A stretch of DNA of 64,000 bases, taken from NCBI RefSeq assembly GCF_035917455.1, contig NZ_CP109078.1, positions 8,168,001-8,232,000 of the forward strand, given 5' to 3'. Positions 41,953 through 60,408 of the stretch are shown piece by piece. Position numbers and translations under genes: made by a program. The DNA is from Micromonospora sp. NBC_01796. GTDB lineage: Bacteria; Actinomycetota; Actinomycetes; Mycobacteriales; Micromonosporaceae. The notes below the pieces were generated by a model. It did no database searches, had not been told where the DNA came from, and was given only the letters and a program-made list of their open reading frames with translations. The number at the start of each line of letters is the position of its first letter. Within the stretch, counting starts at the first letter, position 1.

Positions 41953-42130
41953 ACGCCCCACGGCCCCCCTTCCGCGTGCCGGACACGCGTCACGAAGTCG
42001 TCTGTCCAGGCAGCATAGTGGTCGGGGAGGATCGATGGATAGCAATCGTCGGAGATCCGGCCCAGGGCGCGTGACAGGTCCACAACCCACACACAACCGC
42101 CCCGCAGCCCGGGTTCCGTAGACAGAGGTC

Positions 42131-43588
42131 ATGCGTCACCAGGCGATCCTCACCATCCCGCTCACCGTGACCCGGCAGGCCCGGCAGCCACTGCACGAAC
42201 AGATCGCCAGCCAGGTCGGCACGGCCGTGGAGCACGGGCTGCTGGCACACCGTACGCAGTTGCCGTCGACCCGTACCCTCGCCGCACTGCTCGGCGTCTC
42301 GCGGGGGGTGGCGACCGCGGCGTACGAGCTGCTGTTCACCCGTGGCTACCTGGAGAGCCAGCCGGGGTCGGGGACGTACGTCGCCGGGCGGGTGACGGCC
42401 CGGCAGGAGCCCGGCGGTCCGGGACGAACCGGGACGGGTGCCACCGGACGGCGTCCGCGCGGCCTGCCCGACCGGGCCGCCGCGACCCGTCCCCCGGCTC
42501 CGGCCGACCGGCCCGCGGTCATCGACCTGCGGCCGGGGCAGGTCGACATCGAGGCCTGCCCACTCCCCGCCTGGCGGGCGGCCTGGCGGCGGGCGAGCTT
42601 CAACCGGCCGCCGGCACAGTCCCTCCCCCCGCTCGGCCTGCCCGAGCTGCGCCGGGCCGTCGCCGAACACCTGGCGGCCAGTCGTGGGGTCCCGCTGGCC
42701 GGCCGGGACGTCGTGATCACCGGCGGTACCGCGCACGGGCTCCGGTTGGTGTTGGACGCGCTGGGCCTGCACGGACGCCAGGTGGCGATCGAGGAGCCGG
42801 TGCCGCCGGCCCTGCACCGGGCCGCCGCCGGGGATTCGGAGCGGCCGGCCGCGCTGCCGGTCGATGCCGAGGGCGCCCGGTTGGACGCGGTCGGGCCGAA
42901 CTGCCGCGCCGTCGTGGTCACCCCCGATGCCCAGGTGCCACTCGGTCACGTGCTCTCCGCCGAGCGGCGCCGGGCCGCGGTGGCGTGGGCGGCGAGCTCC
43001 GGCGGCCACGTCGTCGAGATCGCCTGCGACCCGGTGTTCCGGCCCGGGGTGAGCCAGCTACCCCGGCTGTACGGCACCGCCGGCGCCCGGTCGATCCTGG
43101 TCGGAGGCTTCTGCGAGCTGCTCACCCCGGCCCTGAACCTCGGGTACGCGCTCGTCCCGCGCGAACTCACCGCCACCGTCGGCCGGCAGCTCGGCGAGTA
43201 CGCGGCGGTGCCGCCGTACCTGACCCAGCTCGCGCTGGCGTCACTGCTGCGCGACGGGGTGATCGTCCGGCTGATGCACCGGCTCGGCCGCCGGTACGCC
43301 GCCCGACGCCGGATCGTCGAGTCCGCGCTCGCCCCGCTGCGCCGGATCCGGCTCGGCGCCCCGCACGCGGTCAACACCGAGGTGCTGTACCTACCGGAGC
43401 GGTCCGACGCCCAGCAGGTCGCCGACCGGGTACGCCAGCACGGCGTACGGGTGTCGACGCTTTCGCCGTACCACTTCTCCGGCCGGGTGACGCCGCCCGC
43501 GCTGGTGCTCGGCTTCGGCCACCTGCCCGACCCGGACCTGCACCGGAGCATGTCCCGACTGGTCGGCGCCCTGTCCGACCTGAGGTAG
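42131..43588 (+). CDS. MocR-type GntR/aminotransferase-like regulator lacking the PLP lysine
   Basis: 485 residues. N-terminal GntR winged helix: QPLHEQIASQVGTAVEHGLLAHRTQLPSTRTLAALLGVSRGVATAAYELLFTRGYLESQPGSGTYVA. Residues about 135-485 have the fold-type I aminotransferase layout of MocR proteins. The PLP site is degenerate: the usual GTFSKxLxPxLRLG reads GGFCELLTPALNLG, so the Schiff-base Lys is Glu and the phosphate Arg is Asn. The DDYD block reads EIACDPVF and the TPxHQxPtG block reads TPDAQVPLG. It should still bind DNA but probably not PLP. Divergent from the AfsR-like gene (178-bp gap). Confidence 0.85.
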   Translation: MRHQAILTIPLTVTRQARQPLHEQIASQVGTAVEHGLLAHRTQLPSTRTLAALLGVSRGVATAAYELLFTRGYLESQPGSGTYVAGRVTARQEPGGPGRTGTGATGRRPRGLPDRAAATRPPAPADRPAVIDLRPGQVDIEACPLPAWRAAWRRASFNRPPAQSLPPLGLPELRRAVAEHLAASRGVPLAGRDVVITGGTAHGLRLVLDALGLHGRQVAIEEPVPPALHRAAAGDSERPAALPVDAEGARLDAVGPNCRAVVVTPDAQVPLGHVLSAERRRAAVAWAASSGGHVVEIACDPVFRPGVSQLPRLYGTAGARSILVGGFCELLTPALNLGYALVPRELTATVGRQLGEYAAVPPYLTQLALASLLRDGVIVRLMHRLGRRYAARRRIVESALAPLRRIRLGAPHAVNTEVLYLPERSDAQQVADRVRQHGVRVSTLSPYHFSGRVTPPALVLGFGHLPDPDLHRSMSRLVGALSDLR

Positions 43589-46662: not shown

Positions 46663-46700
46663 CCCACCCACCCGCCGCGGCGGGTGTCGACGCTGGGTAA

Positions 46701-46743
46701 TCCAGGTCGGTTCCAGGAAGGGTAGAGCGCCGCTCGATACCGT
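46701..46743 (+). promoter_or_regulatory. SARP-type promoter A (GT87 gene)
   Basis: TCCAGG at 46701 and 46712, exactly 11 bp apart; TACCGT at 46738-46743, 26 bp from the start of the last repeat. Same geometry as promoters B and C but with two clear repeats instead of three. Gene start 30 bp downstream with a normal ribosome site. Confidence 0.65.
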
Positions 46744-46772
46744 TTCCTCGCCCGGCGACGGAGGGAGACACG

Positions 46773-47990
46773 GTGCTGATGCCTTCTCTGACCACGCAGG
46801 CGCCGAGCCGCCCGCGGACCCGTCCGAGGCTCGTCGCGTTCGCACCGGCGGCGCTCGCGGTGCTGATCGCCGCCGCCGCGGTCGCCGTACACCGGGGCAC
46901 CGGGCAGTTCTGGTGGGACCTCGCCGCATACCGTACGGGCGCGTCGGCCGCCGCGGGCGGGGACGGCAACCTGTACGACGTGGCCGTCCGGGGCACCGAC
47001 GGCATCGAACTCGGCTTCACGTACCCGCCGTTCGCGGCACTGCTGTTCCAGCCCCTCGCGTACGTCGGACCGGACCTCGCCATCGCGTTCTGGACGTTCG
47101 CCTCGGTCCTTGCGCTGGTCGCCGTTGTCCAGGTGACCCTTCGGTCGGCCGCCCCCACGGCCGACCGCCGCATGGTGCCGGCCCTGGTCGCCACGGTGGT
47201 CGCACTGCCGATCTTCGCGGTGTCGGGTCACCTCCAGGCCGGTCAGGTCGGCCTCTTCCTCGTGCTGGTCGTGCTCGTCGACCTGACCGGTGATCCCCGA
47301 CGCTGGTGGTACGGGCTCGGCGTCGGGCTCGCCGCCGGTTTCAAGCTGACCCCGCTGATCTTCGTTGTCTTCCTGCTCGCCACCGGGCGGATCCGGGCTG
47401 CCGGGACGGCGGTCGCCGGATTCCTCGCCACCATCGCCGTCGGCTTCGCCTGGCGTCCGGCCGACTCGGCGCAGTTCTGGGGCGGCATGCTGCTCGACTC
47501 GTCCCGGGTGACGGGCGACCCCCGTACGATTCTGAACCAGTCGCTGCACGGCGCGCTGGCCCGGCTGGCCGACTCGGCCGACGTGTCAACGGTCTGGCTG
47601 CCGGTGGCCGCCCTGGTCGCGGTGGCGGGCATCGTCCTCGCCGCGTGGTGCGTACGCCGGGGTGAGCACCTGCTCGGCGTGCTGGCCTGCGCGGCGACCG
47701 GGCTGCTGGTCTCCCCGGTCTCCTGGCACCACCACTGGGTCTGGGTGGTGCCGGCGCTGGTACTGCTGGTCGACCGGGCCCGGAGCACCGGCAACCGGGC
47801 CGGGCTCGCGGTCGCGGGGGCGGCCTGGCTCGTCCTGGTGTTGACCACCGCCTGGGTCCTCGTCGGGATCCAGGGTCGGGACCTGCACTTCCGGGGGTTG
47901 GGTCTGATCTACAGCAACCTGTACGTGCTGATCGGGCTCGCCGCACTCGGCTACCTGCCGTTTTATCTGCGTCGCGGTCGCCGACCGTAG
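46773..47990 (+). CDS. GT87-family membrane glycosyltransferase (mannosyltransferase-like)
   Basis: 405 residues with about 10 TM helices. FWWDLAAYRTGASAAAGGDGNLYD, FTYPPFAALLFQPLAY, AAGFKLTPLIFVVFLLATGR and GLLVSPVSWHHHWVWVVPAL are the blocks of GT87 (DUF2029/PimE-like) enzymes, which transfer mannose from polyprenyl-phosphate mannose on the outer face of the membrane. GTG 46773 has GGAGGG upstream; ATG 46779 is an alternative. First gene of the putative surface glycan cluster. Confidence 0.87.
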   Translation: MLMPSLTTQAPSRPRTRPRLVAFAPAALAVLIAAAAVAVHRGTGQFWWDLAAYRTGASAAAGGDGNLYDVAVRGTDGIELGFTYPPFAALLFQPLAYVGPDLAIAFWTFASVLALVAVVQVTLRSAAPTADRRMVPALVATVVALPIFAVSGHLQAGQVGLFLVLVVLVDLTGDPRRWWYGLGVGLAAGFKLTPLIFVVFLLATGRIRAAGTAVAGFLATIAVGFAWRPADSAQFWGGMLLDSSRVTGDPRTILNQSLHGALARLADSADVSTVWLPVAALVAVAGIVLAAWCVRRGEHLLGVLACAATGLLVSPVSWHHHWVWVVPALVLLVDRARSTGNRAGLAVAGAAWLVLVLTTAWVLVGIQGRDLHFRGLGLIYSNLYVLIGLAALGYLPFYLRRGRRP

Positions 47991-48044
47991 TCAAGGTTGC
48001 ATCCAGGGCCGGTTCAGAAGGGGTTCCATGCGGATCGGTACGGT
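47991..48044 (+). promoter_or_regulatory. SARP-type promoter B (EEP gene)
   Basis: TCAAGG (47991), TCCAGG (48002) and TTCAGA (48013) at exact 11-bp steps; TACGGT at 48039-48044, 26 bp from the start of the third repeat and 7 bp from ATG 48052. Begins immediately after the GT87 stop codon. Confidence 0.75.
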
Positions 48045-48051
48045 CGATGTC

Positions 48052-49161
48052 ATGACGGTCACTGCGCCGGAGGCGCCGGTCCGGGAGCTGGTCCGTCCCG
48101 CCCCCCGGCGAGGCTGGCGCTGGTGGCTCTACTCGGCGCTGGTCGCCGCCGGGGCGGCCTGGTTGGCCTTTGTCGTGGCGCACCTCGTGCTCAGCGGGCA
48201 GTGGTGGCTCTGGCTCGCGGTGGACGCCATCCCCCCGGTGTTCTTCCTCGCCATCCCGGTGGTCCTGGCGGTCGGGGCCTTCCCCTGCCGGCGGTCACGG
48301 GGGCCGGTGGCGCTGCTCGCCGCCACCGCGCTGCTGCTCGGCGCGCCCCTGTCGGGGATCAACGTGCACCGGTTCGGCGGCGGGGACGGCCCCGCCCCGG
48401 CCGATGCCATCCGGGTCTTCACCTGGAACACCGGGTACTGGGACGAGGACGAGGAGACCGAGGCGTTCTACCGCACGCTGCGGGAGGCGGACGCCGACGT
48501 CTACCTGTTGCAGGAGTACTGGTACGCGAAGACACCCGAACCGCTCGACCCGGCGGCGACCCGCCTGCGGGCCGAGTTCCCCGGTTTCCACATCGCGATC
48601 GTCGGGGAGCTGATCACCGTCTCCCGGTTCCCGATCCTGCGGCAGTTCCCGCTGGACGCACCGGACCTGCCACCCCCCACGGGAGGCAGCACCGACCACT
48701 GGCTCTACAAGACGCTGCGTACGGACCTGGATCTCGGGCGGGGACGGGTGCTGTCGACGTACAACGTGCACCTGCCGGTGCAGTTGTCACCGGACGACGG
48801 TCCCCTGGACGGAGACTTCTACCGGGTCGTCAAGGACCAGCACGGCCAGCGCGAACCGCAGTTCCGGGCGCTGGCCCGCGACGTAGCGGCGAACGACAAC
48901 CCGATCCTGCTGGCCGGCGACCTCAACACCAGCCCCGCGATGGGCGACGTACGCAAGCTGCCCGACGGCCTGCGCGACGCCGCGTACGCGATGCCCTCGA
49001 TCTACCCGCGTAGCTGGGCCGAGTCGTCCAACTGGCCCCGCTGGTGGCGACTCGACTGGGCGTTCGTCTCCCCCGACGTACGGGTCCACTCGTACGGGTT
49101 CGGCAGCGCCCACGGCCTGTCCGACCACCGCTCACAGCAATTGGTGATCTCGACCGGATAG
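48052..49161 (+). CDS. Membrane-anchored endonuclease/exonuclease/phosphatase (EEP) family protein
   Basis: 369 residues. Three N-terminal TM helices (about 23-105), then an EEP domain outside the membrane: VFTWNTGYWDED, LLQEYW (metal Glu), LSTYNVHLPVQ, ILLAGDLNTSP (Asp-Asn), RLDWAFVSPDVRV and LSDHRSQQLV (Asp-His). All catalytic motifs are intact. The family cleaves phosphodiesters or phosphomonoesters; with a polyprenyl pathway nearby, a lipid-linked phosphate substrate is plausible (inference). ATG 48052 is preferred because it lies one step after the SARP -10 box; ATG 48028 has a GGGG-containing upstream sequence that is itself part of the third repeat. Confidence 0.85.
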   Translation: MTVTAPEAPVRELVRPAPRRGWRWWLYSALVAAGAAWLAFVVAHLVLSGQWWLWLAVDAIPPVFFLAIPVVLAVGAFPCRRSRGPVALLAATALLLGAPLSGINVHRFGGGDGPAPADAIRVFTWNTGYWDEDEETEAFYRTLREADADVYLLQEYWYAKTPEPLDPAATRLRAEFPGFHIAIVGELITVSRFPILRQFPLDAPDLPPPTGGSTDHWLYKTLRTDLDLGRGRVLSTYNVHLPVQLSPDDGPLDGDFYRVVKDQHGQREPQFRALARDVAANDNPILLAGDLNTSPAMGDVRKLPDGLRDAAYAMPSIYPRSWAESSNWPRWWRLDWAFVSPDVRVHSYGFGSAHGLSDHRSQQLVISTG

Positions 49162-49227
49162 CCGGAACGGAACACCGGAAAGCAATGGTCGGGACAATTC
49201 CGCACCGGTTCGGGCGGGGAATTCGAC

Positions 49228-49252
49228 GCGCCCTGTCACCGATACAGGGCGC
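49228..49252 (+). terminator. Hairpin after the EEP gene
   Basis: Perfect 9-bp stem GCGCCCTGT/ACAGGGCGC with loop CACCGAT, 67 bp after the stop. No T-run directly follows, though a T8 tract lies 36 bp further on. Separates the EEP gene from the GT2 operon. Confidence 0.6.
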
Positions 49253-49320
49253 CATACGATCGGCCGACAAAGATATTCGTGGCCATTGTTTTTTTGTCGA
49301 CCCGCCGCTAGCCTCGAATT

Positions 49321-50361
49321 GTGCGAGTGTCGGTGGTCATTCCGAATCACAACAAGGAAAAGACGATACGGGCCTGCCTCACAGCGGTTTATGCGCAGAC
49401 CCACACCCCGGCCGAGGTGGTCGTGGTGGACGACGCCAGTACCGACCGGTCCCGGCAGATCGTCGCCGATTTCGACTGCACCCTGGTGGCGTTCCCGGTC
49501 AACCGGGGCGTCTCCGCGGCCCGCAACGCCGGGGCGGCACGGGCCGGCGGCGACGTGCTCCTCTTCGTCGACTCCGACATCGCGCTGGCGCCGGACGCGC
49601 TGGCCGTCGCGCTACGGACGCTGCGCGAGCATCCGGCCTGCGGGGTGGTCCAGGGGATCTACGACCTGCACCCGCTCTACGCCGACGGGCCGGTCGAGTC
49701 CTACAAGACGCTGTTCGAGCACTTCTGGCGACGGCGTGACGCCGGGCTGGCCACGTCCACCATGTTCGCCCTGACCGCCGTGCCACGTGACGTGTTCGAG
49801 CTGGTCGGCGGCTTCGACGAGCGGCTGCGCGACGCCGAGGACATCGAGTTCGGCACCCGCCTGCCGGCGTCGTACGAGATCCGGACGAGCGCGCAGATGG
49901 TGGGGCGGCACGACGACGTGGACCGGCTGTGGCCGTACGTGTCCGAGCTGTTCCGCCGCGCGCTGACGTACGCCGACGCGGTGGTGCTGGCCCGGTGGGC
50001 GCCCCGGCCGGTCCCCGAACCACCGCCGGACGGGCGGGCACCGCACCGGGTCGACCGCGCCTCGGTCGCGGGTCTGCTCGGCAGCGCGCTCGCGGTCGCC
50101 ACCGTGCCCCTGTTCGCCGTCTCCCCCTGGCTGGTGGCGGTGCCTCTGGGCCTGCTGACGGTGTTCCTCGTCGCCGACCGGGAGCTGCTGACCTTCGCGC
50201 TGCGCCAGCGGGGACCGGCCTTCCTGCTCTACGCGACGGCGATGCGTTTCCTCACCCACCTGACCGAGTTCGCCGGGCTGTCCATCGGGGTGGGCCGGGC
50301 GTTCGTCCGGCGGCTGCGGCCCGGCGCGGCCCGTCCGGCGGCGCTGGGAGCGCGGCGATGA
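49321..50361 (+). CDS. GT2 family glycosyltransferase with C-terminal membrane domain (paralogue 1)
   Basis: 346 residues. GT-A core: VSVVIPNHNKEKTIRACLTAVYAQ, VVVVDDASTDRSRQIV, LFVDSDIAL (D-x-D) and LRDAEDIEFG (catalytic E-D). The last 100 residues contain two or three TM helices (VAGLLGSALAVATVPLFAVSPWLVAVPLGLLTVFLVA). GTG start 7 bp after a TAGCCT -10-like box (49309-49314), again leaderless-looking. Stop overlaps the next gene as ATGA. Adds a sugar to a lipid or glycan acceptor at the inner face. Confidence 0.87.
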   Translation: MRVSVVIPNHNKEKTIRACLTAVYAQTHTPAEVVVVDDASTDRSRQIVADFDCTLVAFPVNRGVSAARNAGAARAGGDVLLFVDSDIALAPDALAVALRTLREHPACGVVQGIYDLHPLYADGPVESYKTLFEHFWRRRDAGLATSTMFALTAVPRDVFELVGGFDERLRDAEDIEFGTRLPASYEIRTSAQMVGRHDDVDRLWPYVSELFRRALTYADAVVLARWAPRPVPEPPPDGRAPHRVDRASVAGLLGSALAVATVPLFAVSPWLVAVPLGLLTVFLVADRELLTFALRQRGPAFLLYATAMRFLTHLTEFAGLSIGVGRAFVRRLRPGAARPAALGARR

Positions 50362-51374
50362 CGCCTGGGGCCCACGACACGACGCCGCCACCTGCGGCCC
50401 GGGCCGGGGTCAACTGGTGGCGCCTGGTCAACCAGGCCTTGGTCGTGGTGTTCGTGGTGGGGCTGACCATCGGCCTGGTCCTGTTCGTACGCGACCAGGA
50501 CTGGGCGCCGGTCCGGTCCCTGGCAGCCCAACTCGACCCGGTACGGCTCGGCGCCGCACTGGTCGCCGCACTGCTGATCAACGCCTCCGGGCTGCTGCTC
50601 GGGATGCTCTCCTGGCGGGCCCTCTTCGTCGACCTGGGTGCGCCGGTGAACCGGTGGACGGCGTACCGCTTGTTCTTCGTCGGGTTCCTGGCCAAGTTCG
50701 TGCCCGGCCGGTTCGTCGCCCTGCCGGTGCTGCTCCGGATGGGCAAGGAGATCAACGTCGGGCCGGTCCGGCTGGCCGGCGTTTTCATGCTGAGCTGGGC
50801 GGTGGTGGCGCTGACCGGGGCGACCGTCGCACTCGCCGCCGGCCCGGCCGTGCTCGGCGGCACCACCGGCTGGCTGGTGCTGGCCACCGTGCCGCTGGTG
50901 GTCCTGTTCGCCCGCCCGGACCTGCTCAACCGGGGGCTGGCAACGGCGGCCCGGCTGCTGCGGCGCCCACCGCCGGAGGTCAGCGCGTCACCGGCCGGTC
51001 TGCGCCGGGCGATCACCTCGCAGTCGCTGTCCTGGGTGATCTCCGGACACCACCTCTGGCTGCTCGCGGTCACCGCCGGCGCCCCGCCCGCGAGGTCGTA
51101 CCTCATCTGCGTCGCCGGGTTCGCCGCCGCCACGGTGGCGGGACTCGTCGTCATGATCGCGCCGGACGGCCTCGGCGTACGGGAGGCGGTGCTCATGGTC
51201 GGCCTGGCCACCGTCATGCCGCTGTCGGTCGCCACCCCTGTGGTGCTGGCCAGCCGGCTCGTCTGCGCGCTCAGTGAGGTCGCGATCGGCGCGGGCGGGC
51301 TCATGATCGCGCAGTACATGCACCGGCGCCGGACCGTTGTCGACCGCACCGCCGACCCGGCCCTGGCGAGCTGA
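50358..51374 (+). CDS. Flippase-like UPF0104/LPG-synthase TM-domain protein
   Basis: 338 residues with about 8 TM segments. ALLINASGLLLGMLSWRALFVDLGAPVNRWTAYRLFFVGFLAKFVPGRFVALPVLLRMGKE is the AglD/MprF N-terminal-type signature (FxxKFxPG). Later, APDGLGVREAVLMVGL matches the conserved P-x-G-x-G-x-R-E motif. Proteins of this family flip lipids or lipid-linked sugars. ATG overlaps the GT2 stop, so these two are one operon and the acceptor of the GT may be its cargo. Confidence 0.85.
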   Translation: MTPGAHDTTPPPAARAGVNWWRLVNQALVVVFVVGLTIGLVLFVRDQDWAPVRSLAAQLDPVRLGAALVAALLINASGLLLGMLSWRALFVDLGAPVNRWTAYRLFFVGFLAKFVPGRFVALPVLLRMGKEINVGPVRLAGVFMLSWAVVALTGATVALAAGPAVLGGTTGWLVLATVPLVVLFARPDLLNRGLATAARLLRRPPPEVSASPAGLRRAITSQSLSWVISGHHLWLLAVTAGAPPARSYLICVAGFAAATVAGLVVMIAPDGLGVREAVLMVGLATVMPLSVATPVVLASRLVCALSEVAIGAGGLMIAQYMHRRRTVVDRTADPALAS

Positions 51375-51436
51375 ACTCACCGAAGAACAACGCATTCTCC
51401 CTCGACCCGTACGCGACCAGGAATGTCGGTGATCTC

Positions 51437-52105
51437 ATGTCCAACGGACTCCTCCGGGCACTGTCGCGATTGACCAGAATCCCGGTACGCCTTTTCGTCC
51501 GCCCCAATCGCAGAATCAACGCGGCGATGTGGGACACCCAGTACGCCCTCGGTCTGTGGAGCTATCTCGACGGCATGTCCGACGGAACCGTACCGCTGTC
51601 ACTGATCGAAACCTGGGCACCGCAACCGACCATTCTCGACCTCGGCTGCGGCACCAGCGCCAATCTGCCACTGGCGCCCGGGTCGTACCGGCACTACCAC
51701 GGGGTGGACATCAGTCGTAAGGCCATCGCGCAGGCTCGGGCGCTGGGTCGACCGAACACCTCGTTCGACGTCGGCGACATCCGTACCTTCGACTCGTCGG
51801 AGCGGTACGACGCGATCCTGCTGCGCGAGGTGATCTACTACCTGTCCGGTGCCGAGTCCGCGGCTCTGCTGCGCCGGCTGCCCGCGCTGCTCACCCCGCG
51901 CGGAAGGATCGTGGTGCAGGTCTACGACGTGTCCCAGACCGGGGAGTTCGTGGAGGTCATCCGGACCTGCGGCGTACCGGTGGTGGCGGAGGTGCCGACA
52001 TGGCTCGGCGATGGGCCGGCGGGCGCGTTCTTCGTGCTCGCCGCCTCGGCGGAGCACCCGTCCGCGCAGTCGGGTGGGGTGGACGGCAGGGCCGTCGCGC
52101 CCTGA
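51437..52105 (+). CDS. Class I SAM-dependent methyltransferase
   Basis: 222 residues. ILDLGCGTSANLPLAPGSYRHYHGVDISRKAIAQARAL (motif I with acidic loop), FDVGDIRTFDSSERYDAILLREVIYYL (motif II) and LLTPRGRIVVQVYD (motif III). An N-terminal basic segment (LTRIPVRLFVRPNRR) may help membrane association. 62 bp after the flippase gene; may methylate a sugar or lipid made by the cluster. Confidence 0.85.
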   Translation: MSNGLLRALSRLTRIPVRLFVRPNRRINAAMWDTQYALGLWSYLDGMSDGTVPLSLIETWAPQPTILDLGCGTSANLPLAPGSYRHYHGVDISRKAIAQARALGRPNTSFDVGDIRTFDSSERYDAILLREVIYYLSGAESAALLRRLPALLTPRGRIVVQVYDVSQTGEFVEVIRTCGVPVVAEVPTWLGDGPAGAFFVLAASAEHPSAQSGGVDGRAVAP

Positions 52106-52158
52106 ACCGGCGCGGTCGCGGGACGGGCCGCCCCCGTACGGCCCGGCGTCGAGGTGGT

Positions 52159-52965
52159 TCAGACCGAGACGCGGCGGTCCCACCAGGGGCGTACCGCGAC
52201 CGGTTCGCTGCGCAGGAGCCTGCGGTGCAGGTCCTGGAGCTGGTGTCCCGGCTCCACTCCGAGCCGGTCGGCCAGGGTGATCCGGGCGTCCTCGAAGGCG
52301 GTGAGCGCCTCCGCCCGTCGCGAGGTCTGGCCGAGGGCGACCAGCAGCAGTTCCCAGAGCCGCTCCCGCATCGGCTGCTCGGCGAGCATCCACCGCAGCT
52401 CGGAGATCAGGTTCTCGTCGTCACCGAGCAGCAGTCGTACGCCGGTGGTTTCCTCCACCACGTCCTGGCGCAGCTCGGTGAGCCGGATCCGCTCGGCCTC
52501 GGCGAGCGGGCCGGTCGCCTCCTGGAGCGCCGGGCCGGACCACCGACCCAACGCCTGCTGGAACATCCGCAGTGCCTGCGGCAGGTCGGACTGGGCCCGG
52601 GCCGCACGGGCCAGCTTGATGTCCCACTCGAACCGGGTGATGTCGACCGCCCCGTCCGGGATGTCGAGCGTGTATCCGGGGCGGGTGGAGCGCAGCACCT
52701 GAGCCAGGGCGGGTCGCCGCCCCGGCGGCTCCAGCACCCGCCGCAGCCGCCCGATGTAGGTGTGCACCATGTTCTCCACCGAGTTCGGCCGCCGCCCGAC
52801 CCAGATCGCGTCGACGATCTGCGCCACCGACATCACCATCCCGCTGCGCAGCGCGAGCACCGCCAACACCTCACGCTGCCGTGGCGTACCCAGGTAGAGC
52901 GCGTACCCGCAGCGTTCGGTCCGGATCGGTCCGAGCAGCGAGATAGAAAGGTCATCGTCCGGCAT
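52159..52965 (-). CDS. SARP family pathway-specific activator
   Basis: 268 residues, the small DnrI/ActII-ORF4 type. Winged helix about 1-95 (LSISLLGPIRTERCGYALYLGTPRQREVLAVLALRSGMVMSVAQIVDAIW...VENMVHTYIGRLRRVLE) and BTAD about 105-250 (FEWDIKLARAARAQSDLPQALRMFQQALGRW... GVEPGHQLQDLHRRLL). No ATPase or TPR part. Family members bind direct repeats at 11-bp spacing upstream of -10 boxes; three such sites occur in this cluster, so it is the prime candidate activator. Confidence 0.92.
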   Translation of the reverse strand: MPDDDLSISLLGPIRTERCGYALYLGTPRQREVLAVLALRSGMVMSVAQIVDAIWVGRRPNSVENMVHTYIGRLRRVLEPPGRRPALAQVLRSTRPGYTLDIPDGAVDITRFEWDIKLARAARAQSDLPQALRMFQQALGRWSGPALQEATGPLAEAERIRLTELRQDVVEETTGVRLLLGDDENLISELRWMLAEQPMRERLWELLLVALGQTSRRAEALTAFEDARITLADRLGVEPGHQLQDLHRRLLRSEPVAVRPWWDRRVSV

Positions 52966-53061
52966 AGGTCTCTCCCACCCAAGCTGTCGACAGGCGTGGC
53001 ACCCGGCTTCCCATCGGTGCTGGCCGTGGCTCCGGTGGCGACCGACCCGACACGCTCACGA

Positions 53062-53775
53062 TCACCGGCCGCCCTCGGGGGTGACGAACCGCAGACCCCG
53101 GTCCAACAGTCGGGGCAGCACGGTCTCCAGGGCTTCCACGGTCTGCGAGCGGTCGCCGCCGCCGTCGTGGCAGAGCAACACCTGCCCGGCACGACCGCGC
53201 GACAGCTTCCGCGTTATCCGGCGTACGCCCGGACTGCGCCAGTCGCTCGGGTTGACCGTCCAGTCGACCGCGCTCAAGCCAAGATCCGCCGAGGTGCGCA
53301 GGACGTCCCGGGACCAGTTGCCACCGGGGGCGCGGAACAGCCGGGGGCGCAGACCGGTCGCGTCCACGATCTCGTCCTGGGTACGGGAGATCTCGGCCCG
53401 CATCCGCTGCGGGGAGAGCGCGGCGAAGGGCTGCGGGTGCGACATCGAGTGGTTGCCGATGGTGTGCCCGGCTGCCAGCACCCGGCGGGCCAGCTCCGGC
53501 TGTTCGCGTACCCGGTCGCCGATCAGGAAGAACGTGGCCCGGACCTGGTGACGGGCCAGCAGGTCGAGCATGCGGGGCGTCCACTCGGGGTGCGGGCCGT
53601 CGTCGATGGTCAACGCGATGCCGGGACCCGGCACACCGAACGCCGGCAGGTGGCCGCCGCCGAGGCTCGCGCGCCGGCGCAGGAACTGCTGACCCCTGAT
53701 CGCGAAGAAGAGATAGTGCAACGCCTGCGCGGACAGGTACGACAGGCCGCGCGTCCCGTCCGCCGTGCCGCTCAT
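53062..53775 (-). CDS. Polysaccharide deacetylase (NodB domain)
   Basis: 237 residues. A short hydrophobic N-terminal stretch (LSAQALHYLFFAI) precedes the NodB domain: ALTIDDGPHPEWT (Asp-Asp motif 1), HTIGNHSMSHPQPF (H-x-x-x-H zinc motif), RLFRAPGGNWSRD (motif 3), VDWTVNPSDW (motif 4) and VLLCHDGGGDR (motif 5). All catalytic residues present. Deacetylates an N-acetylated sugar of a glycan or glycolipid. The start overlaps the GT2 stop as ATGA. Confidence 0.9.
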   Translation of the reverse strand: MSGTADGTRGLSYLSAQALHYLFFAIRGQQFLRRRASLGGGHLPAFGVPGPGIALTIDDGPHPEWTPRMLDLLARHQVRATFFLIGDRVREQPELARRVLAAGHTIGNHSMSHPQPFAALSPQRMRAEISRTQDEIVDATGLRPRLFRAPGGNWSRDVLRTSADLGLSAVDWTVNPSDWRSPGVRRITRKLSRGRAGQVLLCHDGGGDRSQTVEALETVLPRLLDRGLRFVTPEGGR

Positions 53776-54773
53776 CGCCGGGACTCCACGGGTGCCGTCC
53801 GGGTCGGCCCGAAGTCCCGGTCGGCCAGGTGCCGGATCCCGCCGACGGCCGCACCGGCGGCGATGGTGAGCTGGACCAGCAGGTGCACGCCGTAGAAGAA
53901 GACCGCGAACGCGGGGCCGCGCTGGCGCAGCACGAAACGCAGCAGCCCCGGGTCGGCGGCGGCGAACAGCCCGAAGAGGACCAACGGCAGCACCAGGAAC
54001 ACCGGGCCGAGCAGGACCAGCGGTACGGACAGCGGCACCAGCACCGCGGTGAGCAGGCCGGCCGGCCCGTTGGCGCGGATACCGGCCGGTCCCCGTTCGG
54101 CCAGGGCGACCGGGACCAGCATCTGCGAGCGGCCGAACTGCTTGCGCAGCAGCTTGCCGAGGTGGCTGTCGTCGTCGTGCCGGCAGACCACCGTGTCGGT
54201 GAGTACGGTCCCGTACCGGTCGGCCAGCCGGTCGCCCCACTCGACGTCCTCGGAGGCACGCAGCTTCTCGTCGAAGAGGCCGACCTCGGTGAAGGCCACC
54301 CGGCGGGTCACGCAGACCGCGAACAGGGTGGTACGGACCCGCCCTACGTTGCGTAACCGCCAGTAGTGGCCGTGCAGCAGGCGGTACGCCTCGACCGGTC
54401 CGTCGTCGAACATCGGCCGGAGCGCGTAGATGCCGTGTACGCAGGCCACGTCGGGCTGGTCGCGCAGAATCGCCAGGGCGTTGTCCAGCGCCTCGGGTTC
54501 GGGCGCACAGTCGGAGTCGAGGAAGAACAGCATCTCACCGGTACTGGCCCGAATTCCCCGGTTGCGAGCGGCCGCCGGTCCCATATTGTGGTCGGCGACG
54601 AGCAGTCGGCAAGGGAACTCGCGGGCGATGTCCCGGGTCTCGTCGGTGCTCGCGTCGTCGACCACGATAACCTCGGTGATCGGATGGCGCTGCGCGTAGA
54701 CGGCTTCCAGGCAGGCCCGCAGGGTTTTCGAGCTGTTGTACACGGGGATGATGACCGACACCGTCGGGCGCAT
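53772..54773 (-). CDS. GT2 family glycosyltransferase with C-terminal membrane domain (paralogue 2)
   Basis: 333 residues. VSVIIPVYNSSKTLRACLEAVYAQRHPITEVIVVDDASTDETRDIA, LFFLDSDCAP (D-x-D) and LRASEDVEWG (E-D). Several TM helices after residue 215. Closely parallels paralogue 1, including GIYALRPMFDDGPVEAYRLLHGHYW versus GIYDLHPLYADGPVESYKTLFEHFW. Start at 54773 with GAGGTG; the in-frame upstream extension crosses promoter C and is rejected. Forms an operon with the deacetylase. Confidence 0.88.
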   Translation of the reverse strand: MRPTVSVIIPVYNSSKTLRACLEAVYAQRHPITEVIVVDDASTDETRDIAREFPCRLLVADHNMGPAAARNRGIRASTGEMLFFLDSDCAPEPEALDNALAILRDQPDVACVHGIYALRPMFDDGPVEAYRLLHGHYWRLRNVGRVRTTLFAVCVTRRVAFTEVGLFDEKLRASEDVEWGDRLADRYGTVLTDTVVCRHDDDSHLGKLLRKQFGRSQMLVPVALAERGPAGIRANGPAGLLTAVLVPLSVPLVLLGPVFLVLPLVLFGLFAAADPGLLRFVLRQRGPAFAVFFYGVHLLVQLTIAAGAAVGGIRHLADRDFGPTRTAPVESRR

Positions 54774-54891
54774 GATCAACACCTCACCGGAGCGCAGGGG
54801 CGAATGGTCGGGACATTGACACATCGAAAACGATCGTGCCGCGACTACGCTATCCACCCGCATTGGGACTGGCAAGCGTTGCCTTGAGTAG

Positions 54892-54945
54892 TCAAGGTTC
54901 CGTCCAGGGCCGGTCCAGAAAAGATTCCGGACCGAACTATAGCGT
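54892..54945 (+). promoter_or_regulatory. SARP-type promoter C (aminotransferase operon)
   Basis: TCAAGG (54892), TCCAGG (54903) and TCCAGA (54914) at exact 11-bp steps, a weaker TTCCGG at the next step (54925), and TAGCGT at 54940-54945, 26 bp from the start of the third repeat and 7 bp from ATG 54952. Positions 54890-54913 are nearly identical to promoter B. Confidence 0.8.
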
Positions 54946-54951
54946 CGCAGT

Positions 54952-56364
54952 ATGTCCAATTTGGTCAGCCTCGACGATTGCGACCGGCTCACTGTTCGTG
55001 AGGTTCATGACCTCTATCGCCGATACGTCAACGCCAGCCAGGTCAGCCTCATGACCTCGTTCGGGTTCGGCCGCGAATTGGTCGACCACGCCGAGGGTGC
55101 GTACCTGGTGCTGCGCGACGGGCGGCGCATCCTCGACCTCACCGGCGGCGTGGGCGTACTCAACCACGGGCACAACCATCCCCGCATCGTGGCGGCCCGA
55201 CAGCGGTTCGCCGACCAGCGGCGGATGGAGGTGCACAAGACGTACTTCTCGCCCTACCTGGCCGCACTCGGCCACAACCTGGCCCAGCTCCTCCCCGGCG
55301 ACCTCTCGATGTCCTTCCTGCCGAACTCGGGCGCGGAGGCGGTCGAGGGCGCGGTGAAGCTGGCCTACAAGTACCACCGGGGGCGACGCGGGACGGTCCT
55401 GCGGGCCGACTGCGGATTCCACGGGAAGCTGCTCGGATCCGGCGGGCTCACCGGCCAACCGTCGTTCGCCTTCCCCACGATTCCTGGCATTGTTCCTTTT
55501 ACCTACGGCGACCTGGAGTCGGTCCGCGCCGCGCTGGCCGCACATCCGGATGACGTATACGCGGTGATCGTCGAGCCGTTCAGCGCGTCCACCATACAGT
55601 GGTGCGACGAAGATTTCCTTCGTGGACTCCGCGAGCTCTGCACTCAGCACGACATAGTGCTCATCTTCGATGAGATTTACACCGGGTGGGGCAAGACCGG
55701 CAGCTTGTTCTATTTTATGCGCTATCCCGGCCTGGTCCCGGATGTCCTCACCACGAGCAAGTCCTTTGGCGGCGGGAAGTCCTCCATTTCGGCCTTTGTC
55801 GCTCGCGAGCCGATTTTCCGCAAGGCGTACGACAACCTGACGGACGCGCTGTTGCAGAGCACCAGTACCACCTACTACGGCATGGGCGAGGAGTGCGTCA
55901 CCGCGCTCGAGGCCATCAACATCGTGGTGGAGGACGACTATCCGGGCCGGGCCCGGGAGTTGGAACGTGTGCTGGAGCCCGCCCTGCACCGGCTGGCCAA
56001 GGAGTTCCCGGACGCCGTCGGTCGGGTGGCCGGCGCCGGCGCGCTGTGGGGTGTGCACATCGACGGCGGGCCGAAGATCCTCGACCTGGTCTCCAAGGTC
56101 GCCCCGGCCGGCATGGCCCGCGACCCGAGGTTCAAGGCGAAACTCGTCACCTGCGCGGTGATCAACGCCCTCTACCAGGACCACCAGATCTTCACCTACT
56201 ACACCCTCAACGGGCTCAACCCGCTGATCCTCGGTCCCTCCCTGGTCACCGAGCCGGCCGACGTGCAGCGCGCCACCGACGCACTCGGCGAGGTGCTGAG
56301 CCAGGGGCTGACCCGGCTGGTCACCCGGTTCGTGGCGCAGAAGGTGGGGTCGTCGCTGTGGTGA
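54952..56364 (+). CDS. Class III PLP-dependent aminotransferase
   Basis: 470 residues. LDLTGGVGVLNHGHNHPRIVAA, LPNSGAEAVEGAVKLAYKYH, LIFDEIYTGWGKTG (Asp for PLP N1) and TTSKSFGGGKSSISAFVA (the Schiff-base Lys in TSKSFGGG). Of the ornithine/acetylornithine class, but longer, with an extra C-terminal helical part. Transfers an amino group to a keto substrate, possibly a sugar or polyol carried on lipid. No ribosome site; the transcript is predicted leaderless. First gene of a five-gene operon. Confidence 0.9.
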   Translation: MSNLVSLDDCDRLTVREVHDLYRRYVNASQVSLMTSFGFGRELVDHAEGAYLVLRDGRRILDLTGGVGVLNHGHNHPRIVAARQRFADQRRMEVHKTYFSPYLAALGHNLAQLLPGDLSMSFLPNSGAEAVEGAVKLAYKYHRGRRGTVLRADCGFHGKLLGSGGLTGQPSFAFPTIPGIVPFTYGDLESVRAALAAHPDDVYAVIVEPFSASTIQWCDEDFLRGLRELCTQHDIVLIFDEIYTGWGKTGSLFYFMRYPGLVPDVLTTSKSFGGGKSSISAFVAREPIFRKAYDNLTDALLQSTSTTYYGMGEECVTALEAINIVVEDDYPGRARELERVLEPALHRLAKEFPDAVGRVAGAGALWGVHIDGGPKILDLVSKVAPAGMARDPRFKAKLVTCAVINALYQDHQIFTYYTLNGLNPLILGPSLVTEPADVQRATDALGEVLSQGLTRLVTRFVAQKVGSSLW

Positions 56365-57377
56365 TCACCATTACCGGGGCCGCCGGCATGCTCGGCTCCC
56401 GGCTGGCCGAACGGCTCGCCGCGGACGGGCACGACGTCCAGGGGGTCGACCTGCGCTCCGCTCCCGGCGTCACCGTGGTCGGGGACATCCGGGACCCGAG
56501 GGTGATGGACCGAGCCACCGCCGGTGCCGCCACCCTGATCCACTGCGCGGCGGCACTGCCCAGCTACCCGGCGAACGAGATCCGCTCGATCATCGTCGAC
56601 GGCACCGAGAGCGTGCTCGCCGCCGCGCACCGGGCACGGGTGGGGCACGTCGTGCACGTCTCGTCCACCGCCGTCTACGGGCTGCCGAAGCTCGTACCCA
56701 CGCCGGAGGAGCACCCCCGTACGCCGGTCGACACCTACAGCGCGGCGAAGGCCGCCGCCGAGGAGGTCGCCGAACGTTACCGGGCCGGCGGCACCAAGCT
56801 GTCGATCCTGCGGCCGAAGACCTTCCTCGGTCCCGGTCGGATGGGACTGTTCGCCATGCTCTTCGAGTGGGCCGAGGAGGGGCGCAACTTCCCCGTACTC
56901 GGCCGGGGTGACGTACGGATCCAGATGTTCGCCGTCGACGACCTGGTGGACGCGGTCGTCACCGTGCTGAACGCGCCGGACGACGCGGCCAACGACACGT
57001 ACAACCTCGGTGCGGAACGGTTCGACACCCTGCGCGCGGACTTCCAGGCCGTACTGGACGCGGCCGGGCACGGCAAACGGGTCGTCTCCCTGCCGGCCCG
57101 GCCCGCGCTCGCCGCGCTCGACCTGCTGGAGCGCACCAAACTCTCCCCGGTCTACGGACGGTTGCTGCACAAGCTGATGGGCGACTCGTACGTCAGCATC
57201 GACAAGGCCCAGCAGCGGCTCGGATTCGCCCCGAAGCTGTCCAACCAGGACGCGATCCTGCGCACCTACGAGTGGTGGCGCGAACAGCGTCACCGGACCG
57301 AGCCCGCGCAGCGCGGACGGACCAGCCGCGATCCCTGGCGGCAGGGCGCCCTGGCCTTCGCGAAGATCTTCTTCTGA
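56361..57377 (+). CDS. NAD-dependent epimerase/dehydratase (extended SDR)
   Basis: 338 residues. ITGAAGMLGSRLAERLAADGHDVQGVDLRS (GxxGxxG and Asp for NAD), VVGDIRDP, LIHCAAALP, VHVSSTAVYG, TYSAAKAAAEEVA (Y-x-x-x-K) and LRPKTFLGPGRMGLFAMLF. A complete active site. It could epimerise or oxidise a nucleotide- or lipid-linked sugar. GTG overlaps the aminotransferase stop (GTGA); GTG 56358 is an equally possible start. Confidence 0.9.
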   Translation: MITITGAAGMLGSRLAERLAADGHDVQGVDLRSAPGVTVVGDIRDPRVMDRATAGAATLIHCAAALPSYPANEIRSIIVDGTESVLAAAHRARVGHVVHVSSTAVYGLPKLVPTPEEHPRTPVDTYSAAKAAAEEVAERYRAGGTKLSILRPKTFLGPGRMGLFAMLFEWAEEGRNFPVLGRGDVRIQMFAVDDLVDAVVTVLNAPDDAANDTYNLGAERFDTLRADFQAVLDAAGHGKRVVSLPARPALAALDLLERTKLSPVYGRLLHKLMGDSYVSIDKAQQRLGFAPKLSNQDAILRTYEWWREQRHRTEPAQRGRTSRDPWRQGALAFAKIFF

Positions 57378-57392
57378 CCGGAGGGCCCCATC

Positions 57393-58364
57393 GTGACCGC
57401 CGTCGAGACCACGGTCGAGCGGACCGTCCCCGCCGCCGCACCCCGCGCCACCACCAACGTGCTCGCACTGGCCCGGCACCTCATCACGCTGACCCGTCCC
57501 GGCCACTGGATCAAGAACATCCTGGCCGTACCGCTGGCGCTGGTCGACGCGCCGGCCTGGAACGGGCCGACGCTGCTGCGTACCGGCTGGGCGGTGGTGG
57601 CGTTCACCCTCGCCTCGTCACTGATCTACGTCGTCAACGACATCGCCGACCGTCGGCTGGACCGGGCGCATCCGGTCAAGAAACACCGGCCGATCGCCGC
57701 CGGCCTGGTGCCGGTGCCGCTCGCCTGGTTGCTCGCCGCCGGGCTGGCCGGACTGCTGGTGGCCACGGTGCTCGCCGGGCCGAACATGTCCTGGTGGCCG
57801 CTGGTGGTCTACCTCGCGCTCAGCGCAGCGTACAGCCGGCGGCTCAAGCACCTGCCGTTGCTCGACATCTGCGTGATCGCCGCCGGGTTCGTCCTGCGGG
57901 TGCTCCAGGGGTACGCGGCCACCGGCGGGGAGGCGTCCGGCCTGCTGCTGACCGCCGTCTTCACCGGCTGCCTGGTGCTGATCCTGGGCAAACGCCGGGC
58001 CGAGATCGCGGTCGCCGGGGTGTCCCACCGACCCGCCCTGGCCGGCTACAACGTCCTGCTCGCCGACCACCTGCTCGGGCTCAACGCCTCGCTGGCCGCC
58101 GCCACCTTCCTGCTCTACCTCCACACGGAGGCGCCGATCGACCCGCTCCGCCCGGCCGTGCTGATGGTCGTGGTGCCACTGGGGCTGCTCGCCGCCTTCC
58201 GCTACCTTCAATCGGTCCTGGTGCTCAGGCTCGGCGGCGATCCCATCCGGGCCCTGTTACGGGATCCCATGATCGTGACCAGCGCCGTCCTGATCGGCAC
58301 CGCGCTGGCCGTGGCGGAGGTCGCTGCCCGCTATCCGGAACTGCTGACATGGATGGACAGATGA
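57393..58364 (+). CDS. UbiA-family prenyltransferase, decaprenyl-phosphate phosphoribosyltransferase-like
   Basis: 323 residues with 8-9 TM helices. TRPGHWIKNILAVPLALVDAP and YVVNDIADRRLDRAHPVKKHRPIAAG (first Asp-rich motif with the H-P-x-K-x-x-R-P-I-A-x-G tail typical of DPPR synthase), then SRRLKHLPLLDICVIAAGFVLRV (second motif). Such enzymes join 5-phosphoribosyl diphosphate to decaprenyl phosphate, the entry to lipid-linked pentose donors. Ribosome site GGAGGG. Suggests the cluster makes a polyprenyl-phosphate-linked pentose or derivative. Confidence 0.87.
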   Translation: MTAVETTVERTVPAAAPRATTNVLALARHLITLTRPGHWIKNILAVPLALVDAPAWNGPTLLRTGWAVVAFTLASSLIYVVNDIADRRLDRAHPVKKHRPIAAGLVPVPLAWLLAAGLAGLLVATVLAGPNMSWWPLVVYLALSAAYSRRLKHLPLLDICVIAAGFVLRVLQGYAATGGEASGLLLTAVFTGCLVLILGKRRAEIAVAGVSHRPALAGYNVLLADHLLGLNASLAAATFLLYLHTEAPIDPLRPAVLMVVVPLGLLAAFRYLQSVLVLRLGGDPIRALLRDPMIVTSAVLIGTALAVAEVAARYPELLTWMDR

Positions 58365-59374
58365 ACAAGCCGCTCGTCTCGGTCATCGTGCCGAACTACA
58401 ACTACGCCCGCGCGCTCGGTATGTGCCTCACCTCGCTCAAGGCGCAGACCTACCCGAACCTCGAGATCATCGTGGTGGACGACTGCAGCACCGACGACTC
58501 GGCGACGGTCGCGCGGTCGTACGGCGCCCGTGTGCTCCGTACGCCGGAGAACTCGGGACCGGCGGCGGCCCGCAACCTGGGCGCGGCGAACGCTTCCGGC
58601 GAAATCCTGTTCTTCATCGACTCCGATGTGGCGGCCAAGCCGGACGCGGTCGCCAACGCGGTCGAGGTCCTCGCCTCCGACCCCGAGATCGGGGCCGTCT
58701 GCGGCAACTACGATCCGGTGCCGCTGATCCGGGACAGCCTGGTCGAGGAGTACCGCTGCCTGCAGCAGTCCTACTGGCTGATCGCCGACGAGGGCCGGAT
58801 CATGACGCTCTACACCGCCCTGCTCGCCATCCCGGCGGCGGTGTTCGCCGAGATCGGGCCGTTCAACCCCCGGCTGCGCGAGACCGAGAACGCCGACTAC
58901 GGACTGCGGCTGGCCCAGCGCTACCAGATCTGGCTGACCCCACGGGTACGCGGCGTGCACGACCACGACCACGAGCTGCGGGTGCTGGTCCGCAAGGTGT
59001 TCACCCGGACCGCCCTGCACATCCCCATGTACGCCCACAAACCCGAGTTCCCCGGCGGGCTGAGCAGCGGGCCGCGCGCCTGGGTGAGCATCGCCGCGCT
59101 GTTCACCGTACTGACGGTGGTGTTGCCGGTGCTGCTCGGACCGGCGTTCCTGCTGGTACCGCTGGTCACCTTCGCCGCCTTCGTCGCCGGGGACCTGCCG
59201 ATGTACCGGTTCGTCCTCCGGGAACGCCATCCGGTGTTCCTGATCTACTTCGTCGCGATGCACTTCTTCCTCAACGTGGTCATCGCGGCTGCCGCACTGT
59301 CCGGAGTGATCGCGTGGCTCTCCTCGGCCCGGTTCCGCCGGCTCTACAACCGACCGGAGGCGGCGACCCGATGA
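58361..59374 (+). CDS. GT2 family glycosyltransferase with C-terminal membrane domain (paralogue 3)
   Basis: 337 residues. VSVIVPNYNYARALGMCLTSLKAQTYPNLEIIVVDDCSTDDSATVA and LFFIDSDVAAKPDAVANAVEVLASDPEIGAVCG. The catalytic-base region reads LRETENADYGLRL, so the usual E-D is E-N. TM helices after residue 230. ATGA overlap with the prenyltransferase stop. Very similar to paralogue 4, from which it probably arose by duplication. Confidence 0.88.
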   Translation: MNKPLVSVIVPNYNYARALGMCLTSLKAQTYPNLEIIVVDDCSTDDSATVARSYGARVLRTPENSGPAAARNLGAANASGEILFFIDSDVAAKPDAVANAVEVLASDPEIGAVCGNYDPVPLIRDSLVEEYRCLQQSYWLIADEGRIMTLYTALLAIPAAVFAEIGPFNPRLRETENADYGLRLAQRYQIWLTPRVRGVHDHDHELRVLVRKVFTRTALHIPMYAHKPEFPGGLSSGPRAWVSIAALFTVLTVVLPVLLGPAFLLVPLVTFAAFVAGDLPMYRFVLRERHPVFLIYFVAMHFFLNVVIAAAALSGVIAWLSSARFRRLYNRPEAATR

Positions 59375-60408
59375 ACCCGCAACCCCTCGTCTCGGTGATC
59401 GTGCCGAACTACAACTACGCCGAGTCGCTGGACCTGTGTCTGCGGTCCATCCTCGACCAGACGTACCCGAACGTCGAGATCCTGGTCGTCGACGACTGCA
59501 GTACGGACCAGTCGATCGCGGTCGCCGAGACGCTCGGCGTACGGGTGATCAGCACCGGGGTGAACGGCGGCTGCGGGCAGGCCCGCAACATCGGCGCCGC
59601 GAACACCAGCGGCGAGCTGCTCTGTTACGTCGACTCCGACCTGGTGATGGCGCCCGACGCGGTGGCAAACGCGGTACGCCTGCTCGCCCGCGACTCGACC
59701 ATCGGGGCGGTGTGCGGGATCGAGGACCCCGAGCCGTTGCTGCACGACACCGCGGTGGCCCGTTACCGGGGTCTGCAGTACCACTACTGGTCGATCAGCT
59801 CCGAGGGCGACATCTCGTTCCTCTTTCCCGCGGTCTGCGTGATCCGGCGGGACGTCTTCGACGAGATCGGCCCGTTCAACCCGGCGCTGCGGCAGACCGA
59901 GGAGGTCGACTACGGCTACCGGCTGACCCGGCGCTACCGGATGGTGCTCACCTCCGACGTGCACGGCCGACACGACCACGACCACGAACTGCGCGGGCTG
60001 CTGCGCAAGCTGTTCCACCGTGGACGCCTGCGGATCCCGCTGTACGCCCGCGCCCGCCGGTTCAGCAAGGGCTTCGAGACCGCGTCCCGGGCCGGTGGCA
60101 GCCTGGCCGCGTTCGCGGTGCTCCCGGCGCTGGTGGCGCCGTTGCTGTTCGGCCCGTGGGCGGCGGTGCTCCCGGCCGGTCTGCTGGTCACCTCGCTGGC
60201 CCTCGACGCCGGCATGTACGGCTTCGTCCGCCGCCGGCACGGCGTCGCATTCCTGGTCTTCTTCGCCGGGCTGCACTTCGTCGTCAACGTGACCATCACG
60301 CTCGGGGTGGCCACCGGCGCACTCCAGTGGCTCGGGTCCCGGACCTTCCGGGGCCTCTACGACGCGTCGTTCCCGGTCGACGGAAGGCAGGTACGGGGAG
60401 CGATGTGA
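59371..60408 (+). CDS. GT2 family glycosyltransferase with C-terminal membrane domain (paralogue 4)
   Basis: 345 residues. VSVIVPNYNYAESLDLCLRSILDQTYPNVEILVVDDCSTDQSIAVAETLG, LLCYVDSDLVMAPDAVANAVRLLARDSTIGAVCG and LRQTEEVDYGYRLTRRY (E-E where E-D is usual). HGRHDHDHELRGLLRKLFHRGRLRIPLY parallels HDHDHELRVLVRKVFTRTALHIPMY of paralogue 3. ATGA overlap; last gene of the SARP-C operon. Confidence 0.88.
   Translation: MNPQPLVSVIVPNYNYAESLDLCLRSILDQTYPNVEILVVDDCSTDQSIAVAETLGVRVISTGVNGGCGQARNIGAANTSGELLCYVDSDLVMAPDAVANAVRLLARDSTIGAVCGIEDPEPLLHDTAVARYRGLQYHYWSISSEGDISFLFPAVCVIRRDVFDEIGPFNPALRQTEEVDYGYRLTRRYRMVLTSDVHGRHDHDHELRGLLRKLFHRGRLRIPLYARARRFSKGFETASRAGGSLAAFAVLPALVAPLLFGPWAAVLPAGLLVTSLALDAGMYGFVRRRHGVAFLVFFAGLHFVVNVTITLGVATGALQWLGSRTFRGLYDASFPVDGRQVRGAM

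Follow-up and report, generated by a model that had tools for sequence, protein, structure and literature searches.

Repeat arrays at three promoters of a glycosyltransferase-rich Micromonospora cluster as probable operators of its small SARP

We analysed a window of 64,000 nucleotides from Micromonospora sp. NBC_01796 (assembly GCF_035917455.1, contig NZ_CP109078.1, positions 8,168,001 to 8,232,000 of the forward strand; positions below are counted within the window unless a genomic position is named). A glycosyltransferase-rich gene cluster in this window contains three plus-strand promoters, P1 (46697–46743), P2 (47987–48044) and P3 (54888–54945), at which short direct repeats recur in steps of 11 bp ahead of a −10 hexamer, and a gene for a small SARP (52159–52965, minus strand, 268 aa). 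Judged by sequence, the arrays are very probably the operators of this cluster-situated SARP. The observation is correct and, with high probability, so is its interpretation; the cluster would then be a new regulon for a regulator of a well-known type, in a setting that is less usual for it. As predicted, the regulon is well bounded, with one regulator, two shared promoters and one genus-specific promoter in 15 genomes, and it provides candidate operators at base level together with predictions of where transcription starts, in a cluster that is rich in glycosyltransferases and not of the typical antibiotic kind. The features of most interest are the genus-specific third promoter and, possibly, a shifted operator geometry.

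P1 consists of GTAA, TCCAGG at 46701 and again at 46712, a degenerate unit TAGAGC at 46723 and the −10 box TACCGT at 46738–46743, and its leader carries GGAGGGAG ahead of the GTG at 46773. P2 has GTAG, TCAAGG at 47991, TCCAGG at 48002, TTCAGA at 48013, the degenerate TTCCAT at 48024 and the −10 box TACGGT at 48039–48044, and ATG 48052 comes 7 nt after it. P3 is built likewise from GTAG, TCAAGG at 54892, TCCAGG at 54903, TCCAGA at 54914, the degenerate TTCCGG at 54925 and the −10 box TAGCGT at 54940–54945, with ATG 54952 coming 6 nt after it. Read directly from the letters, all three arrays agreed with the preliminary description in their coordinates, their 11-bp steps and the 26-bp offset from the start of the last strong unit to a TA(C/G)(C/G)GT hexamer. 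That description also named the glycosyltransferase gene GT87 as the target of P1; GT87 is indeed the first gene behind P1, but the promoter heads an operon and its target is more than GT87. Direct repeats with an 11-bp period, one of the two periods (11 or 22 bp) by which SARP sites are recognised, were present at P1–P3 and in relatives. The last strong unit ends 20 bp before the −10 box in the window (21 bp in some relatives), and the in-phase degenerate unit ends 9 bp before it in the window. GTAA or GTAG stands directly 5′ of the first unit in each array (46697–46700, 47987–47990 and 54888–54891), and likewise in relatives.

In shuffle tests that were after the fact, because both patterns had been derived from P1–P3 themselves, a three-unit pattern with up to three mismatches matched five times in the window, always within the P1–P3 arrays (100 shuffles: mean 0.45, 0/100 reached five), and two units plus a −10 box at the fixed offset occurred three times in the window versus none in each of 300 dinucleotide shuffles. 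The presence of the arrays in other genomes, described below, is a stronger test. Across the single-contig genome of 8.56 Mb, the bare pair TYMAGG-N5-TYCAGR gave 12 matches versus 6 for the reversed control. Five of the 12 were in this cluster; the remaining seven lie inside stop-free frames of 177–1005 codons, and all seven lack a −10-like hexamer at offsets 37 and 38, although one of them has such a hexamer at 24. A broad regulon in the genome was rejected, the bare pair being near background outside the cluster. When the −10 box was included, the pattern had four matches and its control none, and three of the four were P1, P2 and P3.

The fourth match (genomic 566192–566234, minus strand; L133 6193–6235) contains TCAAGG, TTCAGC and TACCGT. 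It lies just downstream of the gene of an AfsR-like large SARP (1170 aa) and upstream of an open reading frame (ORF) of ~200 aa (ATG at L133 6134), for which a slightly longer frame gave no Pfam match; the arrangement looks like an afsR–afsS type pair. The spacing of this site was unchanged in one further genome (G001), and no good match was found in another (G002).

The scarcity of the full pattern bears on the possibility that the arrays are bound by a global OmpR/PhoB-type response regulator, PhoP-like, a type that also reads 11-bp direct repeats. Regulators of this type share their type of DNA-binding domain with SARPs, and a PhoP-bound region is reported to overlap the AfsR site of afsS (PMC10972967), but a global regulator should leave sites genome-wide, and the full pattern had only those four matches. 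In the 300 genomes described below, moreover, the array pattern matched only in this cluster, with the small SARP next door. We consider a response regulator of this kind very improbable as the binder.

To follow the arrays through orthologous clusters, we compared 16 distinct records, all SARP-bearing (the window, L043–L048, L058, L119, L123–L126 and L128–L130; the duplicates L127, L131 and L132 were dropped); the named relatives that carry the same cluster are Plantactinospora and Micromonospora. Arrays were searched by a unit score that included neither the −10 box nor the GTAR prefix and whose weights were set from the units of the window. P1-type and P3-type arrays were found in 16/16 records, and P2 in 3/3 genomes of the window's genus and 0/13 other clusters. 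The score also gave scattered weaker pairs elsewhere, none of which had a −10-like hexamer in range. The offset of 26 bp, previously taken as fixed, holds for the three promoters of the window but varies between 26 and 27 bp across relatives: the −10 box starts 26 bp past the start of the last strong unit in 9/16 P1, 15/16 P3 and 3/3 P2 promoters, and 27 bp past it in the other seven P1 promoters (all Micromonospora) and one P3 promoter (L119). In four records (L043, L044, L125 and L128) the P1 array precedes GT2a, and GT87 was not found in the stretch examined. An ATG stands 6 or 7 nt past the −10 box in 16/16 P3 and 3/3 P2 promoters, which supports the proposed −10 boxes and suggests that the P2 and P3 mRNAs are probably leaderless; the share of leaderless mRNAs reported for S. 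avermitilis is 22.2% (PMC8780764).

The information content at P1 was 0.35 bits in the upstream flank versus 2.0 and 1.81 bits in the two unit cores, a contrast inflated because the rows had been picked with a regular expression fixing most core bases. The P1 sites picked in this way were also recovered by the unit score lacking GTAR and the −10 box. At P3 the upstream flank was conserved too (1.07 bits, and 1.77 just before GTAR, versus 1.86–1.89 in the unit cores), as expected from the overlapping divergent promoter. The core of the degenerate unit reached only 0.69 bits at P1 and 1.14 bits at P3 in relatives, far under the strong units. If the arrays were core-promoter DNA kept by shared ancestry and not operators, the conserved P3 flank, the relatedness of all array-bearing genomes and the agreement of P2 with P3 at 44/59 positions, which is consistent with copying, would be readily explained. 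The P1 flank is nevertheless far less conserved than its unit cores, with the inflation just mentioned, and P1 and P3, aligned on the −10 box with the units included, agree at only 28/48 positions, so that we regard mere ancestry as a highly unlikely origin of the arrays.

The arrays were then followed in a sample of 300 genomes of the family, the Micromonosporaceae, drawn evenly from a larger group, with the aminotransferase encoded behind P3 as marker of the cluster. The aminotransferase was found at E 1e-60 or better in 62 of the 300 genomes, in 15 of the 62 with an identity of at least 87%, the next match reaching 79%. An array plus −10 pattern, written after the footprinting result had been seen, matched 32 places in exactly these 15 genomes (control 0), each genome contributing two or three, always within this cluster; P2 of the window is outside the 32 because TACGGT does not fit the pattern. 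None of the other 47 aminotransferase-bearing genomes had an array by this pattern, which divergent arrays could escape. The SARP was searched in 40 of the 62 aminotransferase genomes (threshold E 1e-40, with up to 64 candidates scored in each genome). An ortholog with 80–100% identity was located ~2 kb from the aminotransferase in 15/15 array-bearing genomes, and none was found in the 25 of the 47 array-less genomes that were searched, where the best match was 46%. Among 80 named loci, arrays were present in 8/8 with the SARP ortholog versus 0/72 without it, with upstream sequence shorter than 3 kb in six of the 80 and reading N in L088; arrays of this kind in distant clusters were rejected on this count. 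The small SARP has the traits of a cluster-situated regulator, its gene lying in the cluster and being inherited together with the sites. The SARP regulon proposed in the preliminary description is supported by the joint occurrence of arrays and ortholog in every case tested.

The small SARP itself has the two domains by which the family is recognised, a Trans_reg_C DNA-binding domain (PF00486, E 4.4e-11, 43.1 bits versus a cut-off of 26.2) and a BTAD domain (PF03704, E 6.9e-34), and matches AfsR and EmbR. It was aligned with AfsR (8hvr) over residues 6–256 (E 5.1e-41). At afsS of Streptomyces coelicolor, two AfsR protomers are reported to occupy direct repeats at −40 to −30 and −29 to −19, with T88 and R92 touching bases and a −35-like TTCAGC at −38 to −33 (PMC10936776). 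The small SARP retains T88 and R92 (its T69 and R73), and of the four AfsR residues at which mutation reduced activation, R59, D71 and R173 are identical in it and E76 is a glycine. E77 and E246 of AfsR are arginines in the small SARP; the reported AfsR activation assay showed no clear effect of E77A or E246A (PMC10936776). The residue differences are compatible with a shifted geometry, although they may simply reflect normal variation.

When +1 is placed at the leaderless P3 ATG, the predicted start, the strong units begin at −60, −49 and −38 and the degenerate unit at −27, and one unit would then fall at −38 to −33, in the place of the −35 element. In this register TTCAGA of P2 and TCCAGA of P3 correspond to TTCAGC of afsS, and the two systems further share the two-domain SARP part, 11-bp direct repeats and a weak or missing −35 element (PMC10936776). 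They differ in that AfsR is large, with NOD and TPR domains, whereas the regulator of the cluster is small, and in that the second half-site of AfsR is downstream (−29 to −19) whereas the further strong units here are upstream (−49 and −60). OtcR, the cluster-situated SARP of the oxytetracycline cluster, likewise has its gene adjoining its cluster, several operons of which are preceded by two or three repeats in 11-bp steps (PMC4393881); the present target, in contrast, is glycosyltransferase-rich, and the spacing to the −10 box differs, as discussed below. Three-unit SARP sites are already known (PMC10972967, PMC5930380). One of them, the PimR operator of pimM, has three units with an 11-bp period and an array off the standard place over the −35 element, but PimR is a SARP-LAL hybrid with the unit CGGCAAG and a single target gene (PMC5930380).

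Several points weigh against the small SARP as the binder of the arrays. Shared descent is a confounder of the co-occurrence, since the 15 genomes come from three genera and have the whole cluster in common. The footprint contrast is weak at P3 because of its conserved flank, and P3 alone is weaker evidence. Only 5/12 DNA-side and 11/20 RNA polymerase-side AfsR contact residues checked are identical, the glycine at E76 being among the changes. Between the last strong unit and the −10 box lie 20 bp (21 bp in some relatives), one helical turn more than the 8 bp between the 3′ repeat and the −10 box in the published SARP rule (PMC4393881, PMC10936776); the spacing comes to within 1 bp of this rule only when the degenerate unit is included. 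The support for the operators comprises sequence, spacing, conservation and co-occurrence, from which we infer binding, activation, transcription starts, cooperativity and the pathway. With 34 BTAD matches in the genome, binding by another SARP is conceivable, and since the fourth site of the same geometry adjoins a different large SARP, the unit is not confined to the small one. A candidate for such a real or additional binder is the large AfsR-like SARP of the window (38773–42132, minus strand; Trans_reg_C, BTAD, NB-ARC and TPR), whose gene ends ~4.6 kb from P1. Searched with its DNA-binding and BTAD part (E 1e-60 or better), however, this protein was found in only three of the 15 array-bearing genomes, each belonging to the window's genus, while the arrays are present in 15/15, and we hold another SARP to be unlikely as the real or an additional binder.

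If the small SARP is the binder, as we prefer, its protomers would sit side by side on one DNA face, one per 11-bp unit, and would hold RNA polymerase carrying the principal sigma factor at promoters with a TANCGT-like −10 box but lacking a usable −35 element. The −38 unit would be in the register of the upstream half-site of AfsR at afsS, so that the array would keep this contact and extend upstream; the second half-site of AfsR (−27) has a poor match in P1–P3, and its occupation, should it occur, would depend on cooperativity. Transcription of the SARP gene would start from an ordinary −35/−10 promoter, and the SARP would switch on a polyprenol-linked sugar pathway. A more specific architecture is conceivable, which we put forward tentatively and consider somewhat less likely to hold in full than to fail: a strong pair at −49/−38, one helical turn upstream of that of AfsR and optionally extended to −60, with a −27 protomer joining only via cooperativity or being absent, matching changes at the RNA polymerase-facing positions E76, E77 and E246 (glycine, arginine and arginine), a mostly leaderless output, and a regulon that survived the relocation of a gene through a P3-type array copied before it. 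As the AfsR structure explains only the −38/−27 arrangement, the cluster offers a natural test of the number of SARP protomers and of their distance from the −10 box.

The gene that would have been relocated encodes an endonuclease/exonuclease/phosphatase-family (EEP) protein (48052–49161, plus strand; PF03372, E 3.1e-15). Its start was moved from 48028 to 48052 on the basis of the promoter, because 48028 stands upstream of the P2 −10 box. In 13/13 clusters outside the window's genus, EEP comes after GT2d and closes the P3 operon, where the unit score as applied gave no separate array for it, and it likewise follows GT2d in four more distant clusters (L057, L061, L064 and L069). In the window's genus (3/3 genomes) it stands between GT87 and GT2a, behind P2. 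By parsimony, this position and the likeness of P2 to P3 suggest that the EEP gene changed place and that P2 arose by copying of P3: the gene would have departed from its operon and come to stand behind an operator copy of its own.

Other SARPs can accompany the aminotransferase in more distant clusters. A SARP 38–49% identical to the small SARP was observed within ~2–3 kb of it in L134–L139 (L134–L137 had been picked for it), and one 33–37% identical, with the match edge within ~0.5 kb, in L073, L075, L077, L083, L089, L093 and L117. Two Salinispora versions of the cluster (L064 and L069) show another 11-bp series, TCCAGT/TCCAGT/TTCAGT, ~105–120 bp upstream of the aminotransferase, and no close ortholog of the small SARP was found there in the stretch examined. 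SARP control may recur with other operators in such distant clusters.

The gene frames of the cluster were checked against the codon-position G+C profile. On the plus strand, P1 is followed by GT87 (46773–47990; PF09594, E 7.4e-46), then, behind P2 and EEP, by the GT2 glycosyltransferase GT2a (49321–50361, start from the ORF list; PF00535), an LPG_synthase_TM-family membrane protein (50358–51374; PF03706 in the containing ORF) and a SAM-dependent methyltransferase (51437–52105; PF13847, E 1.3e-13). The second plus-strand row, behind P3, comprises the class-III aminotransferase (54952–56364; PF00202, E 8.1e-60), an NAD-dependent epimerase/dehydratase (56361–57377; PF01370 in the containing ORF), a UbiA-family protein like decaprenyl-phosphate phosphoribosyltransferase (57393–58364; PF01040; NCBIfam PRK12324.1-4, E 1.4e-45, under its cut-off) and two further GT2 glycosyltransferases, GT2c (58361–59374) and GT2d (59371–60408, the last gene of the P3 operon in the window), both with PF00535 in the containing ORF. 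Between the two rows, the minus strand carries a divergent gene row that begins with the GT2 glycosyltransferase GT2b (53772–54773; PF00535), continues with a polysaccharide deacetylase (53062–53760, approximate start; PF01522, E 3.2e-37) and ends with the SARP gene. The domains of this gene set suggest a polyprenol-phosphate-linked sugar pathway with amination, deacetylation, methylation and transfer; a literature search on the product, judged by titles and the beginnings of abstracts, gave no paper on such a cluster.

The divergent row has a predicted ordinary promoter at 54847–54875 on the minus strand, with the −35 box TTGCCA (54870–54875), a 17-bp spacer and the −10 box TAGCGT (54847–54852). 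Autoregulation of the SARP via the arrays was rejected, as this promoter has the form TTGCCA-N17-TAGCGT and its side was array-free in 16 clusters at the score used. A separate promoter directly before the SARP gene was also rejected, since inspection by eye of the 96 bp between the deacetylase gene and the SARP gene revealed only a Shine–Dalgarno-like GGTGGGAG. Between the divergent promoters lies a palindrome, CAAGCGTTGCCTTG at 54873–54886, which overlaps the −35 box of the SARP operon and is recognisable with base changes in the 16 clusters compared; it is possibly the operator of a second regulator.

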